Origin: a virus
IMG/VR virus record: IMGVR_UViG_3300017758_000199
Coordinates: 1-20,399 of that record
DNA length: 20,399 bases
Direction: 5' to 3' (one strand)
In this document: one piece after another, positions 7,713-20,217 of the stretch
How the letters are laid out: every line of letters starts with the position of its first letter
Numbering within the stretch: position 1 is the stretch's first letter
The notes under the pieces: generated by a model
The model's input: only the letters and a program-made list of their open reading frames with translations
Told to the model about the DNA's origin: nothing
Database searches by the model: none
Translations under genes and position numbers: made by a program

Positions 7713-7730
7713 CAATTGACCGCACTAGGG
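7713..7730 (+). promoter_or_regulatory. Weak T7-like promoter
   Basis: CAATTGACCGCACTAGGG shares the CCGCACTA core with the sites at 3775 and 14145 and has G at the expected +1, but matches the 3775 site at only about 12 of 18 positions. It lies directly before a terminator hairpin and the thymidylate-synthase-like gene. Confidence 0.45.
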
Positions 7731-7753
7731 CGCCCTTATGGGCGTCCTTTTTA
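7726..7753 (+). terminator. Terminator/attenuator hairpin before the pyrimidine cassette
   Basis: AGGGCGCCC (7727-7735) pairs with GGGCGTCCT (7740-7748) around TTAT and is followed by TTTTT. It separates the SSB-endonuclease genes from the next genes, or attenuates transcription into them. Confidence 0.75.
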
Positions 7754-7765
7754 TTTGGAGGTTAT

Positions 7766-8530
7766 ATGAGAGCAAATCAAACATGGGTTGAAGCAGTAGA
7801 TCACGTGTTTCACCAGTACGAAAATATTGTGTCACCACGTGGCCAAGAAGTACGTGAAGTAAATCAAGCTATTTATACCGTCGACTGGAACTATCCAGTT
7901 GTTACAAACAAATCAAGAAATCTAAACTACAAATTTATGTTTGGCGAAGCCGCTTGGATACTTAGCGGCAGTAACGATGTAGAGACTATCTCAAGCTACA
8001 TGAAATCTTACGCAAAGTTTAGTGACGATAATGTAACATTGAACGGTGCCTACGGCCCTAAAATAATAGACCAGATGTCATGGGCAGCCAAAGAGCTTGC
8101 TAAGGACAATGACACACGCCGTTGCTACATCAACATATGGCGTGAACGGCCAGGCGAGTCAAAAGACATACCATGCACAGTTGGCATGCAGTTTATGATA
8201 CGTGATGGCAAACTAAACTTGTTTGTCAACATGCGATCACAAGATGTCGTGCTTGGCATGCCTTATGATATTTTCAGCTTTTCTATGATTGCAAAAGCTA
8301 TGCAGCTGATGCTGTACAAAACTCACGACATAGCAGTCGTGCCTGGCGAACTAAAAGTAACCGTAAATTCACTTCATATTTATGAGCAGCATTACGCTGA
8401 CGTTGCTGACTGGTTGACATGTGACTGTCACCGCTTTGCAGTAGACACAAATCTTAGTGAAAAAATAAGCAACTGCCTTACACCAAGCGAGCTTATACAA
8501 GGTCTGCGTGAGTTAGCAGAACTATGGTAA
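7766..8530 (+). CDS. Thymidylate-synthase-fold dCMP (hydroxy)methylase candidate
   Basis: A 254-residue ThyA-family enzyme. Visible motifs are Glu61 in FGEAAW, GAYGP, the nucleophile Cys137 in DIPCTVGMQF, Arg157-Ser-x-Asp160 in MRSQDVVLG, Asp168 in GMPYDIF and His204-x-Tyr206. Spacing Cys-20-Arg-11-Asp is identical to E. coli ThyA Cys146/Arg166/Asn177, so Asp168 replaces the Asn that recognises dUMP. In T4 gp42 (dCMP hydroxymethylase) this position is Asp, and Asn-to-Asp in ThyA is known to shift preference to dCMP. I infer dCMP hydroxymethylation or methylation for modified phage DNA; methylation of dUMP is less likely. A GGAGG site lies upstream. The next gene starts within its last codons and is a dNMP kinase, which would phosphorylate the product. 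Confidence 0.82.
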   Translation: MRANQTWVEAVDHVFHQYENIVSPRGQEVREVNQAIYTVDWNYPVVTNKSRNLNYKFMFGEAAWILSGSNDVETISSYMKSYAKFSDDNVTLNGAYGPKIIDQMSWAAKELAKDNDTRRCYINIWRERPGESKDIPCTVGMQFMIRDGKLNLFVNMRSQDVVLGMPYDIFSFSMIAKAMQLMLYKTHDIAVVPGELKVTVNSLHIYEQHYADVADWLTCDCHRFAVDTNLSEKISNCLTPSELIQGLRELAELW

Positions 8531-9030
8531 TTATTGAAGGCGCTGACGGAACAGGCAAAACCACTTTAGCACACGGAATAGCAAAGTGGCTCGACGCGCA
8601 ATACATACATTGCTCATATCATCCATCATGGGATATTGAAACTTATCACAGACACGTCTTGCATTTTGCAGGCAAGCTAGAAGAGCAGTCTAGCGTTGAG
8701 GTTGTGATTGACAGGTGGGCTATAAGCGAAGCTGCTTACGGCAATGCTTACAGATCAAAACCTGCTTACGATACTAAAGCGCTGCATGATGAAGCTATGC
8801 GTGCTTACAACCCAACACTCATTTACTGCCATAATAATCAAGCAATTGAAAATCACAAAACACGACTGTTTGAACGCGACGAGATGTTTGAAGACATTTC
8901 GCCTGTAGTTGAGCAGTACGAAAACATCATGGCTAGCGGTGACTACGCTTCATACATTCCATACGACTACACCAACATGGATATGTCGAAGTTCATCGTA
9001 TTACATTTTTATCATTGGGGGATCGCATGA
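8524..9030 (+). CDS. Deoxynucleoside monophosphate kinase (thymidylate-kinase-like)
   Basis: A 168-residue P-loop kinase. Walker A is IEGADGTGKTT (Gly6-Thr14), the form of thymidylate kinases. VVIDRWAISEAAYG is the DRx segment that binds the nucleotide, and a lid-like Arg-rich stretch (KTRLFERDEMFED) follows. It would phosphorylate dTMP or the modified dNMP made by the enzyme encoded just upstream, with which it overlaps by 7 bp. T4 uses gene 1 kinase for hydroxymethyl-dCMP, which makes that pairing plausible; the substrate is inferred. The next gene overlaps its stop (ATGA). Confidence 0.85.
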   Translation: MVIIEGADGTGKTTLAHGIAKWLDAQYIHCSYHPSWDIETYHRHVLHFAGKLEEQSSVEVVIDRWAISEAAYGNAYRSKPAYDTKALHDEAMRAYNPTLIYCHNNQAIENHKTRLFERDEMFEDISPVVEQYENIMASGDYASYIPYDYTNMDMSKFIVLHFYHWGIA

Positions 9031-9425
9031 GCATCACAGCTGACATATACGCGCTGCAGGCAAAGTATGGCTTTAACCACGAACCTTTAAACGCCGACAA
9101 ACTTACTTTGCGAGTAGATCAGATAGAAGAAGAATTTAATGAACTGCTAAATGCGTTCTTGCACAAAGATGCAGAAGAATTTGTTGATGCTTGCATTGAC
9201 ATATCTGTATTTGCGTTAGGCACGCTTGCACTACTTGGCGTTGATATTGATGAAGCATGGGCGGAAGTCCACGCAGCAAACATGTCAAAAGTAAGAGGCG
9301 TAAAAGAAGGCCGCGAGCATTCAGGCGGTTGGGACTTAATCAAACCAAAAGGCTGGGAGGCACCCGATCATGCAGGAAACACAGGCTTCTTTTCAGACGC
9401 ACTCAGCTTGCGAACAATGCGGTAG
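9027..9425 (+). CDS. MazG-like all-alpha NTP pyrophosphatase
   Basis: A 132-residue protein with the metal-binding pattern of the MazG/dUTPase-like all-alpha family: E35-E-x-x-E39 (IEEEFNELLNAF) and E51-x-x-D54 (EEFVDACID), followed by the WAEVHAANMSKV motif common in phage members. It would hydrolyse an NTP or dNTP to the monophosphate and pyrophosphate. Following the ThyA-like enzyme and kinase, a dCTPase-like role supplying dCMP and removing unmodified dCTP (as T4 gp56) is possible but not shown. I chose the ATG at 9027 over the in-frame TTG at 9015 because GGGGGA upstream then serves as ribosome binding site. The primase gene starts inside its 3' end. Confidence 0.8.
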   Translation: MSITADIYALQAKYGFNHEPLNADKLTLRVDQIEEEFNELLNAFLHKDAEEFVDACIDISVFALGTLALLGVDIDEAWAEVHAANMSKVRGVKEGREHSGGWDLIKPKGWEAPDHAGNTGFFSDALSLRTMR

Positions 9426-10965
9426 TAGCGACGCCAAAGGTATCTACGAAGACGGACATGCTTATTGCTTTGCATGTGAAACGTACTTTGGAGGTAACGA
9501 TGAAGAATCCATTAGCGAAGGAAATCCGTTCGCCAAAATACAGGCAACGGATAATAAAGAAGCGCAAGCTCTATACGCGCAAGGAAAAGCACAAGCACTC
9601 AAGACCCGAGGCATTACGCAGGAAACCTGCAAGCACTTCGGCTATCGAGTTGGCAACGGCAAACACCTTGCGCCGTACAGAGTTAATGGCAAAATCGTTG
9701 CACTCAAAACACGTGACGCCGACAAAAACTTTAGCGTTGTCGGTGACGGAAAGAAGCTACCGTTATTTGGTCAGCATCTTCAAAGCAAAGGCAAAAAACT
9801 GTTTGTGACAGAGGGAGAGCTAGATGCTCTTTCTCTCTCACAGGCGCTTGGTAACCGCTGGCCTGTAGTATCTGTACCTAATGGTGCAAAGAGTGCGCCA
9901 GAGGCCATCAGAAGAGAGCTAGAGTATGTAATGAACTTTGAGTCTGTGGTCTTTATGTTTGACCAAGACGCGCCAGGCTTAGAAGCAGCAAAAGCATGTG
10001 CTGATCTTATAGAGCCTGGCAAAGCTCACGTAGCTACACTACCTCTCAAAGATGCAAACCAAATGCTTCAAGAAGGCCAGCTAAAAGAGCTAGTCAAGGC
10101 AGCATGGGATGCACCTGTTTATAGACCTGACGGTATTGTTGCAGCCAAAGATTTATATGAGCTTGTGGCGTCTGAAGATCGAGTAGACTCTACAGCTTAT
10201 CCTTACGACTTTATGAACGAAAAGACTAAGGGTATGCGCAAAGGCGAGCTTGTTACAATCACCGCAGGTAGCGGTATGGGCAAGTCGGCATTTGTACGTG
10301 AACTTGCACATCACCTTGTTAAGGAGGATGAACGTGTTGGTCTTCTCTTTCTTGAAGAAAATATCAAACGCACTCTCACAGGTCTTGTATCAATTGAGCT
10401 TAACAAGCCTCTTCATATTGACCGCGAAGGTGTTAAGCAAAGTGATATTCGTACTGCGTTTAACTCTGTATTCGGCAATGGCAACGTATTTGTCTACGAT
10501 CATTTCGGTAGCGTTTCTTTGGAACACATCATTGCGAAGCTACGTTACTTGGCACACGGAGAACAGTGTTCTTGGATTATCATTGATCATCTTTCCATTA
10601 TGGTTTCTGGCCTTGATGTACCGGATGAGAGAAAAGCTATTGACGTAATTATGACACGTCTACGCACCTTTGTTGAAGAAACAGGTGTTGGCATGCTTTT
10701 GGTATCACACTTACGCAGACCAATGGGCGACAAAGGTTTTGAAGAAGGTGCACAAGTATCTTTGAACAGCCTGCGTGGCTCACACTCTATAGGTCAGCTT
10801 TCAGACATGGTTATTGGTCTAGAACGCGACCAACAATCAGACTCAAATGAAACAATTGTACGTGTTGTAAAGAATAGATTTACAGGCGCGACAGGCAGAG
10901 CTGGCAGCCTAATGTATAACGAGGCAACTGGCAGATTGGAGACAATGGATGCGGTTGGTTTTTGA
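9370..10965 (+). CDS. Bifunctional primase-helicase, T7 gp4-like
   Basis: A 531-residue replication protein. An N-terminal Cys4 zinc-binding domain (Cys14-x2-Cys17 and Cys33-x2-Cys36) should read the primer initiation site. The TOPRIM primase domain shows FVTEGELDALSLSQ and FMFDQDAPG. The C-terminal RecA-like helicase has Walker A AGSGMGKS (Lys305), a LFLEEN segment, Walker B WIIIDHLS, and a VSHLRRP motif. The size is close to the T7 gp4 566. GGGAGG precedes the start, which overlaps the pyrophosphatase gene by 56 bp in another frame. The DNA polymerase begins inside its last 17 bases, matching their joint action at the fork. Confidence 0.95.
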   Translation: MQETQASFQTHSACEQCGSSDAKGIYEDGHAYCFACETYFGGNDEESISEGNPFAKIQATDNKEAQALYAQGKAQALKTRGITQETCKHFGYRVGNGKHLAPYRVNGKIVALKTRDADKNFSVVGDGKKLPLFGQHLQSKGKKLFVTEGELDALSLSQALGNRWPVVSVPNGAKSAPEAIRRELEYVMNFESVVFMFDQDAPGLEAAKACADLIEPGKAHVATLPLKDANQMLQEGQLKELVKAAWDAPVYRPDGIVAAKDLYELVASEDRVDSTAYPYDFMNEKTKGMRKGELVTITAGSGMGKSAFVRELAHHLVKEDERVGLLFLEENIKRTLTGLVSIELNKPLHIDREGVKQSDIRTAFNSVFGNGNVFVYDHFGSVSLEHIIAKLRYLAHGEQCSWIIIDHLSIMVSGLDVPDERKAIDVIMTRLRTFVEETGVGMLLVSHLRRPMGDKGFEEGAQVSLNSLRGSHSIGQLSDMVIGLERDQQSDSNETIVRVVKNRFTGATGRAGSLMYNEATGRLETMDAVGF

Positions 10966-12667
10966 CATTGAAGCAAACCACCTTTTAGACGAAGTAACTA
11001 CCATCCACTGCATATGCACACACAATTATGAAACAGGCGAAGCACGTAGTTTTAGACCTGATCAGATTAGCGAAGGCCTAGATTATCTGCAGCAAGCAGA
11101 CGAACTAATTGGCCACAACATTATAGGTTACGACATACCTGTAATACAAAAGCTACATAGCAAATTCAAAGCACCTAAACTGACAGACACGTTGTCTATG
11201 TCACGTCTTATGTTTCCAAATATTAAAGACAAAGACTTTCTGAAAAAGCCTAAAGACATGCCTACAAAAATGTATGGCAGACAAGGCTTGGCAGCATGGG
11301 GTTTTCGTCTTGGTGAATATAAAGACAATTACGAATTAGGCTTTGAAGAGTTCAACGACGAGATGTTGTCGTACTGTGAACAAGACGTACAAGTAAACGT
11401 TAAGCTATATAAATTGTGTCTGGATACGAACACTGATGAAAGGGCTATTAATCTTGAGCATGAGATCAATATGGTTACAGTACAAATGGAGAATACTGGC
11501 TTTCATTTTGACGTGGCTAATGCTGCTACACTATACGGTGAACTAGCAAACAAGCGCGACATTATTAAACGCTCGATGGAAGAGAATTTTGAAGGCACAT
11601 TAAAAACCTACAAAACAAAACCATCGGTAGTTATTCCATTTAACCCATCAAGCAGACAGCAAATTGCTGCACAGTTGATTAACAAGTACGGTTGGAAACC
11701 ATCAGAATGGACACCAGCTGGTCAACCTAAAATTGACGAAGATACTTTATCAAATCTCAAGTACCCAGAAGCACAACAACTCGCTGAATACTTTATGTTA
11801 GAGAAGCGCATTGGCATGATAGCGGAGGGTAATAATGGCTATCTTAAACTCGTGGACAGATCATCTAAACTCCGTGGCAGATATATCACCAACGGAGCAA
11901 TTACCGGACGAGCAACCCACTTTGCCCCCAACTTGGCTCAAGTGCCCTCATTGCGGGTGCCTTACGGCAAAGACATACGCGAGCTCTTTACAGTGCCCGA
12001 TGGGTGGACCATGGTCGGTTGTGACTTGTCAGGAATCGAGCTTAGATGCCTTGCACACTACTTATGCCCTTGGGATGATGGAGCTTACGCAAAACTAATT
12101 CTTGAAGCAGATATACACACTGCAAATCAAGAGGCAGCAGGCTTGCCTGACCGTGACGCAGCAAAGAAGTTTATTTATACGCTTGTCTATGGCGGCGGCG
12201 ACCAAAAGCTAGGTGAAATCATTGGCAAAGGTCGAGACGCAGGTCGGCAAATGAAGAACAAATTCTTCAATGCTATGCCAGCGTTTAAGCGACTTAGAAC
12301 AACAGTAGAGTCAACACTAGAGTCACGTGGGCACTTGATTGGTCTTGATGGCCGCAAGCTATATCCACGCAGCCAACACAGCGCACTTAACACACTATTG
12401 CAATCTGCAGGTGCGTTGGTTGCAAAGCAGTGGCTGATCTACGCGTTTGACGACATTAGCAATACTTATAAGCATGGCTGGAACGAGCAGTTTGTCTTTA
12501 GTGGATGGATCCACGATGAGGTGCAGGCTTCCTGTGCGGAGGAGATCTCTGAAGATGTCGGTAATAGACTTAGAAGAGCAGCGGAAAAAGCTGGAGAAAA
12601 GTTCAACTTCAAATGCAGAGTTGACGCCGAGTATGGTCGAGGATCTAGCTGGGCATCAACCCACTGA
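10949..12667 (+). CDS. Family A DNA polymerase, T7 gp5-like
   Basis: A 572-residue replicative polymerase, shorter than the 704 of T7. The N-terminal 3'-5' exonuclease shows FDIEANHL (Asp6, Glu8), IGHNIIGYD and YCEQDVQVN. Polymerase motifs follow: motif A GCDLSGIELRCLAHYL, motif B RDAAKKFIYTLVYGGGDQKL and motif C GWIHDEVQASC, all with catalytic Asp residues present. The shorter length suggests a reduced thumb or missing thioredoxin-binding insert, so dependence on host thioredoxin is doubtful. A GGAG site and overlap with the primase-helicase indicate coupling. Confidence 0.95.
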   Translation: MRLVFDIEANHLLDEVTTIHCICTHNYETGEARSFRPDQISEGLDYLQQADELIGHNIIGYDIPVIQKLHSKFKAPKLTDTLSMSRLMFPNIKDKDFLKKPKDMPTKMYGRQGLAAWGFRLGEYKDNYELGFEEFNDEMLSYCEQDVQVNVKLYKLCLDTNTDERAINLEHEINMVTVQMENTGFHFDVANAATLYGELANKRDIIKRSMEENFEGTLKTYKTKPSVVIPFNPSSRQQIAAQLINKYGWKPSEWTPAGQPKIDEDTLSNLKYPEAQQLAEYFMLEKRIGMIAEGNNGYLKLVDRSSKLRGRYITNGAITGRATHFAPNLAQVPSLRVPYGKDIRELFTVPDGWTMVGCDLSGIELRCLAHYLCPWDDGAYAKLILEADIHTANQEAAGLPDRDAAKKFIYTLVYGGGDQKLGEIIGKGRDAGRQMKNKFFNAMPAFKRLRTTVESTLESRGHLIGLDGRKLYPRSQHSALNTLLQSAGALVAKQWLIYAFDDISNTYKHGWNEQFVFSGWIHDEVQASCAEEISEDVGNRLRRAAEKAGEKFNFKCRVDAEYGRGSSWASTH

Positions 12668-14241: not shown

Positions 14242-16128
14242 ATGACAGTAGAAGAACTCTACGGAGACTTTATCCATAAGTCCCGATACGCAAGATATTT
14301 AGAAAACCAAAAGAGACGAGAGACATGGCAAGAGACTGTAGATCGATACATCGATTTTATGTCGACCAAGGCTCCGGCTATAACCCAAGAAACTTGGCAA
14401 GAAATAAGGCACGCTATCATTACTAAGCAAGTAATGCCTAGCATGAGAGCCTTAATGACTGCAGGTCCTGCATTGGACCGAGACAATACCTGTGGCTATA
14501 ACTGTTCTTATTTGGTCGCTGATGACCCCAAGGCCTTCGACGAGGCTATGTTCATACTTATGTGTGGTACAGGTGTGGGCTTCAGTGTTGAGAGACAATA
14601 TATTAATCAGCTTCCTGAAGTCCCTGAGCGCCTCTTTGCATCTGATACTGTAATTAAGGTATCTGACAGCAAAGAAGGATGGTCCAAGGCCTTTAGAATG
14701 CTGATAGCGCTGCTATATGCAGGTGAAAAACCAAACTGGGATGTCACCAAGGTACGTGCAGCAGGTGAACGGCTAAAGCAGTTCGGAGGCAGAGCCTCAG
14801 GACCTGAGCCGCTGGTAGACTTGTTTGAGTTTACTGTGAACCTGTTCAGCAATGCCAAAGGACGTAGACTCTCTTCGATTGAATGCCATGATCTGTTTTG
14901 TAAGATAGGTGAGATTGTAGTCGTTGGGGGAGTTAGACGCTCAGCGATGATTAGCCTGTCCAACTTGACTGATGACCGTATGCGTCATGCTAAGTCAGGC
15001 GAGTGGTGGAACCAGAATAAACAGCGAGCACTCGCTAACAACTCAGTGTCGTTTACTGAGAAGCCTGATGTAGGTGCATTCTTACGTGAATGGACTTCAC
15101 TCTATGAGAGTAAATCAGGTGAGCGAGGTATCTTCAACCGCGTTGCAAGTCAAAAGCAAGCGGAGAAGTATGGCAGGAGAGATCCTAACCATGAGTTCGG
15201 CACAAATCCGTGCAGCGAAATAATTTTACGACCATACCAGTTCTGTAATCTGACCGAGGTCGTCATAAGACCCGAAGATGACAAAGATAGCCTCTGTAAG
15301 AAAGTGAGACTCGCAAGCATCTTGGGCACTATTCAAGCGACGCTAGTCAACTTTCCGTACTTGCGTCGAGTGTGGGAAAAGAACACTGCTGAAGAACGAC
15401 TACTAGGTGTATCGCTTACAGGTATCATGGATAACAAACTGATGAACTCGGTTACTGAAACAGCCAAAGATACGTTAGAAGCTATGCGTGTTGCAGCAGT
15501 ATCAGCAAATGCCGAGCATGCAGATATGTTAGGTATTCCGCGATCAACAGCCATCACTTGCGTTAAGCCAAGTGGTACTGTTAGTCAGCTGGTCGATGCA
15601 GCCTCAGGTATTCATACGAGGCATAGTGACTTTTACTTCCGCACAGTGCGTGGAGACAATAAAGATCCTTTGACACAGTTCATGGTCGATCAAGGTATCC
15701 ACGCTGAACCTGATGTAATGAACCCTGAAACAACTACGGTGCTAACGTTTCCAATAATGTCACCACAGGATGCAATTACGCGTGAGAACCTTACGGCTAT
15801 TGAACATCTGGAACTATGGAAGATGTATCAAGAGTTTTGGTGCGAACACAAACCATCGATAACCATTAGCGTACATGAACACGAGTGGCCTGAAGTTGGC
15901 GCTTGGGTGTTTAACAACTTTGACGATATTTCAGGTATTTCGTTTCTGCCACACGACGGCGGCAGCTACAGACAAGCACCATATCAAGAAGTTGAATACG
16001 AGGACTACTTAGAGATGGCAAACCTGTTTCCAAAGAAAATAGAGTGGAACGACATGGTCGAAGAAGAAGACACAACAACAGGCTCACAAGAGTTAGCGTG
16101 CAGCTCAGGCAGCTGCGAAATTATGTAG
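14242..16128 (+). CDS. nrdJ: Class II (adenosylcobalamin-dependent) ribonucleotide reductase
   Basis: A 628-residue reductase that makes deoxynucleotides for phage replication. Cys84 and Cys88 stand in NTCGYNCSY. The active-site loop has Cys324-Ser-Glu326 in GTNPCSEI and Cys335 in FCNLTEV, the same Cys-x-Glu and 11-residue spacing as Lactobacillus leichmannii NrdJ Cys408/Glu410/Cys419. ITCVKPSGTVSQL is the phosphate-binding loop. The C-terminus ends ELACSSGSCEIM, a shuttling Cys pair. Absence of NrdB-like or activase genes supports the B12-dependent class, so host or environmental cobalamin is needed. A T7-like promoter lies upstream. I see no ideal Shine-Dalgarno at 14242. Confidence 0.93.
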   Translation: MTVEELYGDFIHKSRYARYLENQKRRETWQETVDRYIDFMSTKAPAITQETWQEIRHAIITKQVMPSMRALMTAGPALDRDNTCGYNCSYLVADDPKAFDEAMFILMCGTGVGFSVERQYINQLPEVPERLFASDTVIKVSDSKEGWSKAFRMLIALLYAGEKPNWDVTKVRAAGERLKQFGGRASGPEPLVDLFEFTVNLFSNAKGRRLSSIECHDLFCKIGEIVVVGGVRRSAMISLSNLTDDRMRHAKSGEWWNQNKQRALANNSVSFTEKPDVGAFLREWTSLYESKSGERGIFNRVASQKQAEKYGRRDPNHEFGTNPCSEIILRPYQFCNLTEVVIRPEDDKDSLCKKVRLASILGTIQATLVNFPYLRRVWEKNTAEERLLGVSLTGIMDNKLMNSVTETAKDTLEAMRVAAVSANAEHADMLGIPRSTAITCVKPSGTVSQLVDAASGIHTRHSDFYFRTVRGDNKDPLTQFMVDQGIHAEPDVMNPETTTVLTFPIMSPQDAITRENLTAIEHLELWKMYQEFWCEHKPSITISVHEHEWPEVGAWVFNNFDDISGISFLPHDGGSYRQAPYQEVEYEDYLEMANLFPKKIEWNDMVEEEDTTTGSQELACSSGSCEIM

Positions 16129-16158: not shown

Positions 16159-17241
16159 ATGCCACCACGCAATCACAAAGCGTGGCTTAAAACACCTAAA
16201 ATAGAACACATCAGTTCGCTTATATATTCTGACTATGATTTGTATGAGCAAGAGATCGAAAAGATCTTCAGCAAAGTGTGGGTTCCTGTGTGTCACGAAA
16301 GTGAGCTACCTGAGGTAGGTCGTTTCCGTACATCACAAATTGCACACAAAACAATACTTATCGTTAATGAACAGGATGGAATACAGTCGTATCTGTATCA
16401 CAATCCAGGTGTCGTTAAAGTAGCAGGGTATGTTAGCGAACTTGATTACGCAGGCTGGGACAAGCTGCACACCGAAGTAAATTATGGCGGTATGGTATGG
16501 ACTACGTTAGATCGTAATCCAAGCCAAAGTCTCGAGCAGTGGTTAGATGGTGCCTTTGATTGTATCGATAGTGCCATCAACACTGAACCGCTTGAGGTAT
16601 TTCATTATCACAAAGCGATCATCGGTACTAATTACAAGCTATGGCACGACACAAACAGTGAATTTTATCACGACTTCATGCACTACCATAACCGTGTAAC
16701 TGGCTTTAACGATGCTTACTTTGCGCGCAAAAATATACCGTTCAGTAATGGACACGTGAACGTTAGCAGCTTCACCGTTAACTACGAAGAGTATGAAGGC
16801 TTTGAAGATAGAGGCGAGTTGTCGTTTCCTTCGCTGCCTCCTAACCAATGGTATATGGTCGATCTGTTCCCAGGCTTTAATTTTAACTTACGTGGCAGCG
16901 CGTATCGCTCAGATAGCGTTACACCGCTTGGCCCTGACAAGGTACTCATTGAATTTCGTGGGTATGGGTTGAAGAGCGACACACCAGAAGAACGAGCTAC
17001 TCGTATTGAACATCACAACTCTATTTGGGGACCATTCGGTAGAAACCTACACGAAGACCTAATTGGTGTTGCTGGTCAAGGTACGACGATGCGACCTGGT
17101 ACTGAACCTCGCAACATCTTACATGGGCGTCACGAAAATCAAACAATCCACGACGAAGTTGGTATGCGTCATTATTACGCTGAATGGAGTAAGTGGATGG
17201 GAGTAACAGCCGATGGGCAACAAGCGCGGCTTGTGGGATAA
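16159..17241 (+). CDS. Rieske-type oxygenase alpha subunit lacking the Rieske domain core
   Basis: A 360-residue member of the Rieske non-haem iron oxygenase family. The N-terminus matches (EIEKIFSKVWVPVCHESELP, VGRFRTSQI, TILIVNEQDG). The C-terminal catalytic domain is also present: NYKLWHD, then EFYHDFMHYHN with Glu168 and His171, and NLHEDLIGVAGQG with Asp300 as likely third iron ligand, ending RHENQTIHDE. Between Gly74 and Gly84 the usual ~45-50 residues with the CxH...CxxH cluster ligands are gone; only YHNPGVVKVAG, like the end of a CPYHxW...G segment, remains. The second His is also shifted: the family has H-x4-H, here His175 (+4) and His177 (+6). No [2Fe-2S] centre can be bound. Substrate unknown. 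It follows nrdJ by 30 bp and is read through a leader ORF. Confidence 0.82.
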   Translation: MPPRNHKAWLKTPKIEHISSLIYSDYDLYEQEIEKIFSKVWVPVCHESELPEVGRFRTSQIAHKTILIVNEQDGIQSYLYHNPGVVKVAGYVSELDYAGWDKLHTEVNYGGMVWTTLDRNPSQSLEQWLDGAFDCIDSAINTEPLEVFHYHKAIIGTNYKLWHDTNSEFYHDFMHYHNRVTGFNDAYFARKNIPFSNGHVNVSSFTVNYEEYEGFEDRGELSFPSLPPNQWYMVDLFPGFNFNLRGSAYRSDSVTPLGPDKVLIEFRGYGLKSDTPEERATRIEHHNSIWGPFGRNLHEDLIGVAGQGTTMRPGTEPRNILHGRHENQTIHDEVGMRHYYAEWSKWMGVTADGQQARLVG

Positions 17242-17365: not shown

Positions 17366-17388
17366 GGGCTAACGCCCTCAACCTTGTT
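17363..17388. terminator. Bidirectional terminator between convergent blocks
   Basis: TGAGGGC (17363-17369) pairs with GCCCTCA (17374-17380) around TAAC. On the plus strand CCTTGTTTT follows; on the minus strand CCTATTTTTTT follows, so it can end both transcripts. Stop codons of both flanking genes lie in the stem. Confidence 0.82.
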
Positions 17389-17581
17389 TTAGCAATTCTT
17401 TCAGATCTTCGTTATACGCATCGTATGCCTCTTTCGCATCCCAGTAAGCATTCATAAATACTGCTTTGCGAAACGCACGATTGTCTTCAAGAAAGAAGTC
17501 GCACATCTCATTAATACGATGTTCGCTCAGATTAGACTCAGCAGCAAACTTGGCAAAGAAACGATAATGTTTACGTGTCAT
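17378..17581 (-). CDS. Small hypothetical protein
   Basis: A 67-residue, mostly helical protein rich in aromatic and charged residues (YRFFAKFAAESNLSEHRINE, AYWDAKEAYDAYNEDL). Not recognised. GAGGA precedes the start, and the upstream micro-ORF ends two bases before its ATG. Last gene of the first minus-strand cassette. Confidence 0.65.
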   Translation of the reverse strand: MTRKHYRFFAKFAAESNLSEHRINEMCDFFLEDNRAFRKAVFMNAYWDAKEAYDAYNEDLKELLKQG

Positions 17582-17582
17582 G

Positions 17583-17675
17583 TTATTGTCCTCGATTTGG
17601 ATTAAATAAAAGAAACATAATGGCCGCCGTGATTAACACGACGACCACTATAAGAAGTCGCTTTAGCCACTTCAT
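17583..17675 (-). CDS. 30-residue membrane micro-protein
   Basis: The ATG overlaps the stop of the upstream gene (ATGA). The product is a basic start (MKWLKRLL), a hydrophobic helix (IVVVVLITAAIMFLLF) and a short polar tail. The overlap and tight spacing to the next gene support translation. It looks like a single-TM peptide; function unknown, possibly membrane-directed host takeover. Confidence 0.55.
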   Translation of the reverse strand: MKWLKRLLIVVVVLITAAIMFLLFNPNRGQ

Positions 17676-18076
17676 GCTTCTTCACACTCTTCAATATCGA
17701 TGTCATAGTTGTGCACGCAGTAATCATCACACTCGAAGTCACCAGTAATTATGTCATGGCCATCTAAGCCTTCGACAATATTTCTAGCTGTCTCTTCATC
17801 GGGTGCAGACACTTTGATTTGTGCTTGGAACGTCACAGATACTTCTAACTCGAACATCTTAATGAGTAAGATTTCTTCGACTGCAGATACTGCATCGCTG
17901 ACGTCACAACCATCTTCGGTGTTGCCCATAATTTCGAGCATATCGATGATGCATTGACGCTTGTCCTCACCGTCTAACTTTTCAAACAATGAGACAACCG
18001 TTATAGGCTGTTGCTCGGAGTTAAGTTCGTTATGGGCAAGGCTAATATTTTCATTTAGAAAACATGATAAAGACAT
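17672..18076 (-). CDS. Hypothetical acidic protein
   Basis: A 134-residue protein I do not recognise. The C-terminal part from about residue 74 (MFELEVSVTFQAQIKVSAPD, then EETARNIVEGL) looks like a compact alpha/beta domain and ends in a strongly acidic tail with several Cys (DFECDDYCVHNYDIDIEECE). The start has AAGGAG eight bases upstream. It opens the first minus-strand cassette, behind a bipartite element at 18092-18129. Confidence 0.7.
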   Translation of the reverse strand: MSLSCFLNENISLAHNELNSEQQPITVVSLFEKLDGEDKRQCIIDMLEIMGNTEDGCDVSDAVSAVEEILLIKMFELEVSVTFQAQIKVSAPDEETARNIVEGLDGHDIITGDFECDDYCVHNYDIDIEECEEA

Positions 18077-18091
18077 TTTATTCTCCTTGGT

Positions 18092-18129
18092 TAGTTGTCC
18101 ATGGAGGCCTAAAAAAGGCGTCTGAAATT
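18092..18129 (-). promoter_or_regulatory. Bipartite repeat element, copy 1
   Basis: Read on the minus strand: AATTTCAGACGC, exactly 16 nt, then TGGACAACTAA, then the ribosome binding site of the 18076 gene. The AGACG core can also pair with CGTCT just upstream. It lies directly after a terminator T-run. Proposed promoter; function not shown. Confidence 0.6.
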
Positions 18130-18135
18130 AAGACG

Positions 18136-18162
18136 AAAAAAAACCTCTCCGAAGAGAGGCAG
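18136..18162 (-). terminator. Terminator with TTCG loop
   Basis: On the minus strand, GCCTCTC-TTCG-GAGAGGT is followed by eight T. It ends the cassette of the 18600 gene. Confidence 0.88.
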
Positions 18163-18174
18163 TTTTGCGTAAGG

Positions 18175-18600
18175 TTATGCGTAGACTTTTTGTTTTGCTT
18201 GCAATTCGATCACGTTTGCTTGATATCGAAGATTGTCAATTTTCTTCTGCATCGTTGGTGTGATGCCAGTTTCAATTTCGTGAATAAGATTATTTTCGGC
18301 ATCTGTATCTACGCTGCAATAAACATCAAAATAAACACCGTATTCGTGACGTAAATTTGTGAATGCGTTTGGATGAAGAAGTTTGCCGTTAACTTTACGT
18401 GGACCTCTTGCCATTATAGTAATCTTACGAAGTGCAAACCTATCACAGTACGTCCCAAGTTTACGGGCCATTTTACGTGTCGCTTTATTTTGAGCGCGTA
18501 CACGCTTTTTCAAACCTAATAATACAGGATCGTCTTTTACGTATACCGAAAACTTATAATTAAATGTTTTACGGTTACTCATGGAAGTTAAAAAAGCCAT
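18175..18600 (-). CDS. Hypothetical basic protein
   Basis: A 141-residue, Lys/Arg-rich protein. The middle (KKRVRAQNKATRKMARKLG, ALRKITIMARGPRKVNGKLL) is strongly basic, the C-terminal half more mixed (EYGVYFDVYCSVDTDAENNL, ITPTMQKKIDNLRYQANVIE). Not recognised; nucleic-acid binding is plausible from charge alone. GGAG lies seven bases before the ATG at 18600; Met7 is an alternative start without such a site. A single-gene cassette with bipartite element upstream and TTCG terminator downstream. Confidence 0.7.
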   Translation of the reverse strand: MAFLTSMSNRKTFNYKFSVYVKDDPVLLGLKKRVRAQNKATRKMARKLGTYCDRFALRKITIMARGPRKVNGKLLHPNAFTNLRHEYGVYFDVYCSVDTDAENNLIHEIETGITPTMQKKIDNLRYQANVIELQAKQKVYA

Positions 18601-18615
18601 TCGACACTCCTTGGT

Positions 18616-18653
18616 TAGTTGTCCATTAAGGTGTCAAATGTGCGTCTGAAAAT
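18616..18653 (-). promoter_or_regulatory. Bipartite repeat element, copy 2
   Basis: Minus strand: ATTTTCAGACGC, 16 nt, TGGACAACTAA, then CCAAGGAG. From TGGACAAC through AAGGAG it is identical to copy 1. Confidence 0.6.
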
Positions 18654-18671
18654 GTTCGACGAAGTTAATCG

Positions 18672-18695
18672 AAAAAAAAGAGCGCCGAAGCGCTC
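18672..18695 (-). terminator. Terminator with TTCG loop
   Basis: On the minus strand, GAGCGC-TTCG-GCGCTC is followed by eight T. It overlaps the stop region of the 18694 gene. Confidence 0.88.
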
Positions 18696-18849
18696 AATCT
18701 TGTTCTTCGTCTTCAAAATATATAGCAAAAACGTGTGCTAATTTATCGAGTGTTTCTCTGCCGCTCGAACTTACACGATCGTATTCCCATTCGCACAAAT
18801 CTCTAATATAACCGCGAAGTTGTTCGGTCTCTTTTTCATTTAGCTGCAT
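18694..18849 (-). CDS. Small hypothetical protein
   Basis: A 51-residue acidic protein (MQLNEKETEQLRGYIRDLCE, ending FEDEEQD), helical, not recognised. I chose the ATG at 18849 because GGAGG lies seven bases upstream; the in-frame ATG at 18894 lies within the previous gene without a site. It overlaps the upstream gene by 14 bp. Confidence 0.6.
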   Translation of the reverse strand: MQLNEKETEQLRGYIRDLCEWEYDRVSSSGRETLDKLAHVFAIYFEDEEQD

Positions 18850-19090
18850 TTCGTGCCTCCAATAATTCATTAATTTTATTAATCGCAAAAGCAATAGACG
18901 TATATTCGCCGTGATCTATAAATGTCGAACCGTCTCGTTCATTAACAATATAAGAGTCAATGTGATACGGACCGCTTTCAGAACTACACACTTGAATATT
19001 AAAATTCTCATGATTGCGAATTTCAAAATGATCGTCTTCAACTGATGGATCATCGCTATGAATTAATTTTAATGAGTCAATATCGATCAT
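18836..19090 (-). CDS. Hypothetical protein
   Basis: An 84-residue acidic protein, not recognised. It appears to be a small beta-then-helix domain: strands around FEIRNHENFNIQVCS, YHIDSYIVNERDGSTFIDHG, then helix SIAFAINKINELLEA. GGAGA precedes the start, which overlaps the stop of the upstream micro-ORF (ATGA). Middle gene of a three-gene cassette. Confidence 0.65.
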   Translation of the reverse strand: MIDIDSLKLIHSDDPSVEDDHFEIRNHENFNIQVCSSESGPYHIDSYIVNERDGSTFIDHGEYTSIAFAINKINELLEARNAAK

Positions 19091-19188
19091 GACATGTCTC
19101 CAAATATCATTAACAAAAATAATACTTGAGCGAGTACGCCACCGATCAAAATCAATTCAAAAAGACCGATTAATAGTTGCTTAATCAT
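19087..19188 (-). CDS. 33-residue membrane micro-protein
   Basis: GAGGAGAT directly precedes this ATG, so a real start is likely. The product (MIKQLLIGLFELILIGG, then VLAQVLFLLMIFGD) is almost entirely one hydrophobic helix. It opens the third cassette, directly behind a bipartite element. Same size class and topology as the 17583 micro-protein. Confidence 0.6.
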   Translation of the reverse strand: MIKQLLIGLFELILIGGVLAQVLFLLMIFGDMS

Positions 19189-19203
19189 AGGTATCTCCTC
19201 ACA

Positions 19204-19240
19204 TAGTTATCCATTATGTGTTAAAAAAGGCGTTTGAATT
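19204..19240 (-). promoter_or_regulatory. Bipartite repeat element, copy 3
   Basis: Minus strand: AATTCAAACGC, 16 nt, TGGATAACTATG, then GAGGAG. Two substitutions from the consensus, same spacing. Confidence 0.55.
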
Positions 19241-19246
19241 TGAGCG

Positions 19247-19284
19247 AAAAAAAAGACACAAAACGACTAATGTCATTTCGTGTC
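19247..19284 (-). terminator. Terminator of the 19545 gene cassette
   Basis: On the minus strand, GACACGAAATGA pairs with TCGTTTTGTGTC around a short loop, followed by eight T. Confidence 0.82.
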
Positions 19285-19290
19285 ATATTT

Positions 19291-19545
19291 TTATACTTCG
19301 ATTTCTACATCAAAATCTTCAATGTGTTCATTGATTAAAATTTCGTAGAAATTATAAAGAATATCATTATATCGATCTGCATATTTATTATCTTCTTCGT
19401 CAGTCGAATTTTCGTCGACAGTCATTTCTTTATTTAATTTTATTGTAACAAAATTGACAACATCGTCATTATTACAAAAATCTGAATAATCGTTATTAGC
19501 TGCAATTGAATAGAAATATTTATAATCTTTAATATTGATAAGCAT
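19291..19545 (-). CDS. Hypothetical acidic protein
   Basis: An 84-residue, very acidic, Asn- and Tyr-rich protein (NNDYSDFCNNDDVVNFVTI, ENSTDEEDNKYADRYNDILY). No domain recognised. Such small acidic early phage proteins can be inhibitors or DNA mimics, but nothing here proves it. GGAGAATTAA precedes the start. A single-gene cassette with element copy 4 upstream. Confidence 0.65.
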   Translation of the reverse strand: MLINIKDYKYFYSIAANNDYSDFCNNDDVVNFVTIKLNKEMTVDENSTDEEDNKYADRYNDILYNFYEILINEHIEDFDVEIEV

Positions 19546-19563
19546 TTAATTCTCCAATTTTAT

Positions 19564-19601
19564 AAGTTGTCCAATAAGGCTTAAAATTGGCGTATGAAAT
19601 T
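19564..19601 (-). promoter_or_regulatory. Bipartite repeat element, copy 4
   Basis: Minus strand: ATAATTTCATACGC, 16 nt, TGGACAACTTATAA, then TTGGAG. Confidence 0.55.
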
Positions 19602-19605
19602 ATGC

Positions 19606-19644
19606 GAAAAAAAAGAGCGAAATGACTTTCGTCATCTCACTCTC
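19606..19644 (-). terminator. Terminator of the metallopeptidase cassette
   Basis: On the minus strand, GAGTGAGATGAC-GAAA-GTCATTTCGCTC (one mismatch, G-T pairs) is followed by eight T. Confidence 0.82.
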
Positions 19645-19650
19645 ATTTCA

Positions 19651-20124
19651 TTACGAAATCGCTTTCATAACTTTATCAATATACTTTTCTTGCATTTTTC
19701 TCGCTTCGATTTCCCATGGCAAATTACGATAACCTTCGTAATCTTTATTCGCATCAATATCATTATAATTCTTACCGTCAAACGTAACTGTCTTCTTCGA
19801 CTTTTGAATTAATTTCTTTGTCGCGTATTGTTGTGCATGAGTCATTTCGTGAATGATTGTCGAAACGATTTCTTTCAAATCATAACGACGAATATCGATC
19901 GCAATTTCTTTTGTCGAATTTTGATAATAACCGACACGAGATGCTTTACGAATATTTCTAACGAATAAATTTACGTTATCAACTTTGAAAATCTTTTTGC
20001 ATTCATCGAATGCTTTTACAAGATCATCAATATTCGCACGATAAAACTCACGAATTTCTTTAACGTCACATGCTACTGAACCAGTTGCAAATACGTCATC
20101 ACGAACTTCAATAAATTTTGGCAT
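19651..20124 (-). CDS. Zincin-type metallopeptidase-like protein
   Basis: A 157-residue protein with a HExxH zinc motif (IIHEMTHAQQYATKK) and, about 45 residues later, LPWEIEARKMQ, where a Glu could be the third zinc ligand. This pairing occurs in small phage and bacterial zincin-like proteins. It may cleave or merely bind a host protein; the substrate is unknown and there is no signal peptide, so it should act in the cytoplasm. The ATG at 20124 has CGGAGAATTAAA in front, the same site type as the 19545 gene, so the in-frame ATG at 20190 is rejected. Two tandem bipartite elements lie upstream, which is unique in the window. Confidence 0.72.
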   Translation of the reverse strand: MPKFIEVRDDVFATGSVACDVKEIREFYRANIDDLVKAFDECKKIFKVDNVNLFVRNIRKASRVGYYQNSTKEIAIDIRRYDLKEIVSTIIHEMTHAQQYATKKLIQKSKKTVTFDGKNYNDIDANKDYEGYRNLPWEIEARKMQEKYIDKVMKAIS

Positions 20125-20141
20125 TTTAATTCTCCGTTTTT

Positions 20142-20217
20142 TAGTTGTCCATGAAGAGCAATAATTTGCGTATGAAATTATCGTCTTCATTAAGTACTAA
20201 AATTTGCGTATGAAAAT
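20142..20217 (-). promoter_or_regulatory. Tandem bipartite repeat elements, copies 5 and 6
   Basis: Two ATTTCATACGC-type cores on the minus strand (about 20168-20178 and 20206-20216) stand exactly 38 bp apart. The proximal copy has the full TGGACAACTAA after 16 nt; the distal copy has a degraded version (TGAAGACGAT) at the same spacing. Confidence 0.55.

Follow-up and report, generated by a model that had tools for sequence, protein, structure and literature searches.

A three-gene cassette in the T7-like replication module of a viral genome fragment probably replaces some or all of the cytosine in the phage DNA with 5-hydroxymethylcytosine (5hmC) made before replication. The window, meaning the whole stretch of DNA that was analysed, covers positions 1 to 20,399 (20,399 bases) of IMG/VR virus record IMGVR_UViG_3300017758_000199. 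The cassette lies between endonuclease I and primase and encodes a ThyA-like enzyme, a thymidylate-kinase-like protein and an all-alpha NTP pyrophosphatase (NTP-PPase), whose coordinates, frames and overlaps, re-checked on the sequence, are as the initial annotation gave them (Table 1). The activity of each cassette enzyme and the modified base itself are what we infer from gene identities, residues, gene linkage and a relaxed avoidance of restriction palindromes, all of which were observed here.

Table 1. Positions of the cassette genes and associated features in the window
Feature	Position	Strand	Evidence and boundaries
Terminator-like hairpin (intrinsic type, with T run) immediately before the cassette	7727..7748	+	9-pair stem, then TTTTTATTT
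Predicted dCMP 5-hydroxymethylase (ThyA superfamily, Asp134/Asp168 type)	7766..8530	+	PF00303 E=2.5e-25; ATG 7766 to TAA 8530
Predicted hydroxymethyl-dCMP (dNMP) kinase, thymidylate-kinase-like	8524..9030	+	PF02223 E=7.2e-8; phrog_761 thymidylate kinase; ATG 8524 to TGA 9030; 7-base overlap (ATGGTAA) with the ThyA-like gene
Predicted dCTP pyrophosphatase (all-alpha NTP-PPase, MazG/PRA-PH type)	9027..9425	+	PF01503 E=2.4e-12; phrog_671; best start ATG 9027, ATGA overlap with the kinase stop; ends TAG 9425
Primase-helicase and family A DNA polymerase	9370..12667	+	Pfam DnaB_C/Helic-prim_T7_N, DNA_pol_A; primase-helicase start at 9370 overlapped by the NTP-PPase 3' end
B12-dependent ribonucleoside-triphosphate reductase	14242..16128	+	TIGR02505 E=2.3e-90, under the curated cut-off; phrog_367

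The PF00303, PF02223 and PF01503 matches of the three cassette genes all lie above the curated cut-offs. The upstream hairpin folds with z = -3.3, the remaining terminator-like sites of the region being near shuffle expectation. Around the cassette, the replication module has an ssDNA-binding protein and an integrase together with five Autographiviridae-like parts that Pfam recognises: a single-subunit RNA polymerase, endonuclease I, a primase-helicase of T7 type, a family A polymerase and an exonuclease. A class II ribonucleotide reductase is also encoded. The initial annotation had described a T7-like podovirus; 'T7-like' fits the replication module, but the 39.8-kb relative G007 (L021/L022), a chimeric phage type, joins such a module to SU10-like genes for portal (PF23899) and major capsid (PF17236).

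The order ThyA-like gene, kinase, NTP-PPase is conserved in all nine of the nearest contigs that reach far enough. No ThyA-like gene was found at the cassette position in the cassette-free T7-like relatives HTVC019P, CRP-804 and LUZ100, so that the cassette looks as if it had been inserted into a standard genome layout. Within the clade, the ThyA-like and kinase genes have been replaced as a pair between near-identical phages: proteins flanking the cassette are mostly 85-97% identical between the window and contig L003, whereas the ThyA-like enzyme is 67% and the kinase 62% identical, and DNA identity falls over about 7.8-9.0 kb (window 7766-9030 versus L003:6643-7880).

Alignment with MG1655 ThyA bore out the initial reading that the spacing Cys137-20-Arg157-11-Asp168 equals that of Cys146/Arg166/Asn177 in E. 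coli ThyA, with Asp at the Asn177 place. Asp168 is kept in 10/10 of the nearest viral contigs and 76/76 wider ones, and is thus not a chance feature. Asp at the ThyA 177 position shifts the substrate from dUMP to dCMP, the change from Asn to Asp by itself makes ThyA a dCMP methylase, and positions 177 and 147 are the leading residues separating cytosine-modified from unmodified environmental contigs (PMC8670742); the equivalent of E. coli His147 is Thr138 in the window enzyme. More telling for the chemistry than the 177 position, the sole one used by the initial annotation, is Asp134, which lies three residues before the catalytic Cys137 (Cys-3), where E. coli ThyA has Leu (Leu143). In T4 gp42, Asp145 at Cys-3 activates the water that gives hydroxymethyl rather than methyl (PMC6400193), and alignments show Asp at this position in the ThyA-like enzyme, T4 gp42, the SPO1-type dUMP hydroxymethylase and MilA. 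Both Asp134 and Asp168 are present in 76/76 viral relatives and in 20/20 relatives from bacterial genome assemblies, which were searched for with two patterns, one containing Asp168 and neither containing Asp134.

Other residues narrow the assignment further. Invariant E61, Y96, R118, C137, R157, H204 and Y206 match the ThyA-fold catalytic Cys, Glu58/60, Tyr94/96, Arg126, Arg166, His207 and Tyr209. Relative to canonical ThyA, the enzyme has Asp, Thr and Asp for Asn177, His147 and Leu143, it misses all NCBIfam ThyA equivalog cut-offs by far, and it lacks the ThyA-type C-terminal tail motif, which occurs in 13/13 of the ThyA-type set and 0/76 relatives. MilA has Lys133 and Ala176 at the ribose-reading positions in place of Arg/Ser (PMC5175136); the window enzyme has the deoxynucleotide-type residues Arg118 and Ser158 there, and does not fit the MilA/BcmA CMP hydroxymethylases. 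The folate-site Asp160 (E. coli Asp169 position) is retained, the corresponding residue being Asn in the protein of phage Acj9, and with only weak similarity to 9iqc/9iqu the enzyme does not fit the AfhB type either. Finally, Ser94 of the T4 S-x-Y signature (Ser94-x-Tyr96) is Gly94 in the window and in 76/76 relatives, and Ala in the SPO1-type dUMP hydroxymethylase; with Gly instead of Ser/Thr, the enzyme is not placed in the T4 gp42 subfamily (criterion of PMC6400193).

A quick maximum-likelihood tree including gp42 and ThyA, a check suggested in the initial annotation, groups the enzyme with gp42 and apart from ThyA: T4 gp42, SPO1-type and actinobacterial sequences share one branch (96% SH-aLRT) with the window family, which is distinct from gp42, and canonical ThyA and the DLP4 group lie outside it. 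In the AlphaFold model (pLDDT 96), the closest solved relative by both sequence and fold is the CMP hydroxymethylase MilA (Z 27.9, 29% identity); the ThyA-fold dCMP hydroxylases 9iqc/9iqu also match by sequence and fold, less closely. Given Asp134, the missing ThyA tail, the retained Asp160 and MilA as the nearest structure, 5-hydroxymethyl-dCMP is the best-supported product, in preference to dTMP, 5-methyl-dCMP or 5-hydroxy-dCMP.

Gene neighbourhoods point in the same direction. At distances of up to about 3 kb from the ThyA-like gene, 66/76 relatives have NTP-PPase, 56/76 kinase and 0/76 DHFR, compared with 0/12, 0/12 and 9/12 beside canonical Asn/Leu phage ThyA, rates whose absolute values lean upward, the neighbour HMMs having been built partly from the family, so that the contrast with the controls is the point. 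Loci of the DLP4 group (Asp177, Asn at Cys-3) have NTP-PPase in 8/8 and DHFR in 6/8, and the neighbour contrasts give Fisher p of 1e-6 to 4e-10 with relatedness ignored. These contrasts indicate that NTP-PPase accompanies enzymes specific for cytosine, and DHFR those that methylate reductively, which yields dihydrofolate. No DHFR Pfam family was found in the 20-kb window, and together with Asp134 and the missing tail this favours hydroxymethyl over methyl, a choice that the initial annotation had left open. Co-occurrence of PF00303 and PF01503 is also typical of cytosine-modified contigs in bulk metagenomes (PMC8670742).

The kinase (168 aa) has a P-loop GADGTGKTT and a DR...SE motif, its core residues are invariant in 21 relatives, and its model (pLDDT 92) matches YorR and thymidylate kinases. 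The NTP-PPase has the EExxE...ExxD metal-site motif and is similar to the MazG-like enzyme DR2231. The thymidylate-kinase and MazG-like folds are thus supported, and the three genes are of the right general classes for a T4-type pathway; the substrate specificities of kinase and pyrophosphatase, which sequence does not reveal, are predictions. The earlier statement that they encode the same three activities that T4 uses holds as a statement of function, but only the hydroxymethylase shares its Pfam family with T4, as gp1 belongs to PF21448 (DNMK) and gp56 to PF08761 (dUTPase_2). A glucosyltransferase-like gene, reported absent initially, is likewise missing from the Pfam and PHROG families listed for the window, a fragment, and no sugar, carbamoyl or other hmC-decorating gene is among those listed for the window or, in lists of up to 25 families, for the 39.8-kb G007.

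If cytosine is modified, selection against G/C-containing restriction palindromes should relax. Avoidance was measured as the observed/expected ratio of G/C-containing palindromes under a maximal-order Markov model. For 6-base palindromes, the ratio was 0.87 in the window clade and 0.88 in the cassette carriers HTVC119P/HTVC200P, compared with 0.59 in T7-like phages without the cassette (n=35) and 0.58 in other marine phages; canonical-ThyA phages gave 0.82 (n=11), non-T7 loci of the window family 0.97, and T4-like loci, the positive control, 0.99. Four-base palindromes agree (0.92 and 0.96 with the cassette versus 0.79 without), and cassette-bearing and cassette-free phages showed no difference in A/T-only palindromes or in matched non-palindromic 6-mers. 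Without the cassette, avoidance deepens as the G/C count rises through 0, 2, 4 and 6 (0.96, 0.73, 0.36 and 0.26), whereas with it there is hardly any deepening (0.91, 0.87, 0.88 and 0.70), and the pattern is spread across 43/52 motifs. Temperate life was rejected as the cause of weak avoidance, since phages that have an integrase but lack the cassette show equally strong avoidance (median 0.55). GC content was also rejected, as the difference persists when GC is limited to at most 0.43 (p=0.004 for 6-mers, p=0.0002 for 4-mers), p-values that overstate independence because just two T7-like clades carry the cassette. The contigs in this comparison have no assigned hosts. Two cassette-free T7-like contigs, L331 and L370, are exceptions with little 6-mer avoidance (0.91 and 0.99); a Pfam scan of these contigs lists ThyX and a methyltransferase, and no ThyA family is among those listed.

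Among cultured phages, Stenotrophomonas phage AXL3 encodes a ThyA-like protein with 43% identity and the same key residues, with kinase and NTP-PPase genes adjacent. Its DNA resists 35/37 restriction enzymes; the two that cut it, TasI and Tru1I, recognise sites made up of A/T alone. Its authors suspected modified G/C, yet assigned the genes to dTMP synthesis (PMC7504290). The combination of Asp177 and the Cys-3 residue would explain both findings, although AXL3 also has a methyltransferase, a dCMP deaminase and a longer kinase, and the cassette by itself may not be enough for its resistance. Like the window, the cluster formed by AXL3 and Pseudoxanthomonas phage PW916 has an Asp/Asp ThyA-like enzyme, thymidylate kinase and NTP-PPase encoded side by side; unlike it, the cluster has a different gene order and those additional genes, and its members are siphophages. 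Two Votkovvirus phages of Pelagibacter (Autographiviridae), HTVC119P and HTVC200P, are T7-like with an integrase and have an Asp/Asp ThyA-like gene and kinase at the same place as in the window, between endonuclease I and primase. In these two phages, unlike in the window, the kinase precedes the ThyA-like gene, which is annotated thymidylate synthase, and no NTP-PPase match was found. The modified cytosine predicted by the initial annotation is thus supported by residues, neighbourhood, the AXL3 phenotype and the genome footprint, and for the window phage itself it is a prediction from sequence.

In the pathway that we propose, the B12-dependent ribonucleoside-triphosphate reductase, outside the cassette, would act as the upstream supplier and make dCTP; because the reductase looks like an enzyme acting on triphosphates (TIGR02505, below cut-off), phage-made deoxycytidine would appear in that form. 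The NTP-PPase would split dCTP to dCMP, both starving the pool of ordinary cytosine and supplying the hydroxymethylase with its substrate. The ThyA-like enzyme would then hydroxymethylate dCMP using methylene-tetrahydrofolate and water, with Cys137 attacking C6, Asp168 selecting cytosine and Asp134 activating the water. The kinase would convert hm-dCMP to hm-dCDP and the host NDP kinase would complete hm-dCTP for insertion by the phage polymerase, so that the primase-helicase and family A polymerase would have to use a modified dNTP. The expected outcome is DNA left uncut by type II restriction enzymes having G/C in their sites.

An ordinary thymidylate cassette, boosting dTTP during infection through thymidylate synthase and thymidylate kinase together with a MazG-type enzyme that does housekeeping or lowers (p)ppGpp, is unlikely. 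It agrees with the thymidylate synthase annotation of the relatives HTVC119P, HTVC200P and AXL3, with the reading of the AXL3 authors themselves (PMC7504290) and with the (p)ppGpp control that the LUZ100 authors proposed for a MazG-like gene. However, Asp168, Asp134, Thr138 and Met156 replace Asn, Leu, His and Gln, the C-terminal tail is missing, DHFR neighbours none of the 76 relatives, NTP-PPase is absent beside canonical ThyA, and palindrome avoidance is largely gone. About as improbable is a dCMP methylase giving DNA with 5-methylcytosine, as in Xp12. The window enzyme has Asp at Cys-3 as in proven hydroxymethylases and no tail, no DHFR family occurs in the 20-kb window or the 76 loci, and the 96% branch joins it with T4 gp42, SPO1 and actinobacterial enzymes to the exclusion of DLP4 and ThyA, all of which argues against a methylase even though the Asn to Asp change at 177 alone produces one (PMC8670742). 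Methylase-like Asp-type ThyA enzymes do exist, in VAP7 (Leu at Cys-3, with tail) and the DLP4 group (Asn at Cys-3), with DHFR beside those of VAP7, DLP4 and 6/8 DLP4-type loci.

Phages with 5-hydroxycytosine are known (PMC13390438), and the hits to 9iqc/9iqu by sequence and fold would suit a flavin-dependent dCMP hydroxylase of the AfhB type with this product, but that reading is very unlikely given that Asp160 is retained where the AfhB-like protein of Acj9 has Asn, that Cys-3 is Asp, not Glu, and that MilA is nearer than AfhB in sequence and fold. More improbable still is that 5-hydroxymethyl-dCMP is made and that the kinase takes the base within DNA as its substrate, yielding a hypermodified cytosine. 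In hypermodification phages, P-loop kinases do act on the polymer, and among the relatives some kinases are longer or, as in phage G gp315, fused to UDG; on the other side, the 168-aa window kinase is thymidylate-kinase-like with the DR...SE motif, and pyrophosphorylase, amidotransferase and glycosyltransferase are absent among the families listed for the window and G007.

Conversion of dCMP to 5-hydroxymethyl-dCMP before replication, the preferred reading, has its closest functional precedent in T4, where gp42 (dCMP hydroxymethylase), gp1 (dNMP kinase) and gp56 (dCTPase) provide the three activities predicted here. T4 gp42 shares Asp at Cys-3 and 177, Thr after Cys and the Arg/Ser phosphate-sugar residues with the window enzyme. 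The systems differ in that the T4 genes are scattered and those of the window adjacent, in Ser94 versus Gly, in the Pfam families of the kinase and pyrophosphatase, in the T7-like replication module of the window and in the glucosyltransferase, which is not among the families listed for the window. MilA, from the mildiomycin pathway, also has Asp at Cys-3 and 177 and is the closest solved structure, with ribose-type Lys133/Ala176 where the window has deoxyribose-type Arg118/Ser158. The MetaGPA thymidylate-synthase-domain proteins share Asp at 177, an altered 147 and co-occurrence with PF01503, but come from experimentally selected contigs, many with a carbamoyltransferase or deaminase, which the window lacks (PMC8670742).

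Marine phage 'thymidylate synthase' genes are usually read as auxiliary metabolism; if the present reading is right, those of the Asp134/Asp168 family may be DNA-modification genes that serve as a disguise. The residue key of 177 and Cys-3, together with neighbours (NTP-PPase for cytosine, DHFR for methylation), would offer an inexpensive way to sort ThyA homologues into makers of dTMP, 5mC and 5hmC, and the palindrome footprint provides an independent test that needs only sequence. The present reading would also account for the unexplained enzyme resistance of AXL3, and the cultured relatives allow direct testing. More tentatively, in the T7-like clade and separately in HTVC119P/HTVC200P, cytosine may be wholly or largely unglycosylated 5hmC, made by a compact pathway with parts non-homologous to those of T4 and allowing escape from restriction-site counter-selection. 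The link of Asp-type ThyA and PF01503 to modified cytosine in bulk metagenomes is already known (PMC8670742). Apparently new relative to the literature consulted are the setting in T7-like phages, cultured SAR11 ones among them, the argument for hydroxymethyl from Cys-3, tail and DHFR, the paired exchange of ThyA-like and kinase genes, and the palindrome footprint.

Several observations concern other phage enzymes. The Acinetobacter phage Acj9 protein annotated as gp42 dCMP hydroxymethylase (L018:2941-3645) matches AfhB with E=5e-93 (9iqu/9iqc) and, being of this dCMP hydroxylase type, probably makes 5-hydroxycytosine. Vibrio phage VAP7 (L110:1341-2243) has an Asp177-type ThyA with Leu at Cys-3, a ThyA-like tail and a DHFR neighbour, and the DLP4 group (L307-L314, L111) an Asp177-type ThyA with Asn at Cys-3; these enzymes, annotated thymidylate synthase, are candidate dCMP methylases producing 5mC. 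In phage G, close to an Asp/Asp ThyA-like gene, gp315 (L020:1408-2403) joins a thymidylate-kinase-like domain with one of the uracil-DNA-glycosylase superfamily, which hints at a further step in larger phages. LUZ100 was considered as a T7-like parallel with thymidylate synthase and MazG and set aside, its enzyme being ThyX, of a different family.

Downstream of the reductase, window 16159-17241 encodes a Rieske-oxygenase homologue with the PF00848 catalytic domain and no PHROG match, rejected as a cassette member since the examined stretches of its viral relatives contain no ThyA-like gene. The conserved Cys-x-His/Cys-x-x-His [2Fe-2S] ligands are missing in the window protein, whose only cysteines are C45 and C135, and likewise in the 80 closest of at least 594 IMG/VR relatives, among which Glu168, His171 and His175 of the mononuclear iron site are invariant; from sequence, the family appears to be a widespread cluster-less oxygenase of marine phages. 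Positions 17381-20190 on the minus strand hold a run of small genes without assigned function, closed by a metallopeptidase-like gene (DUF6782/SprT-like, a weak match) that is conserved in HTVC119P and G007.
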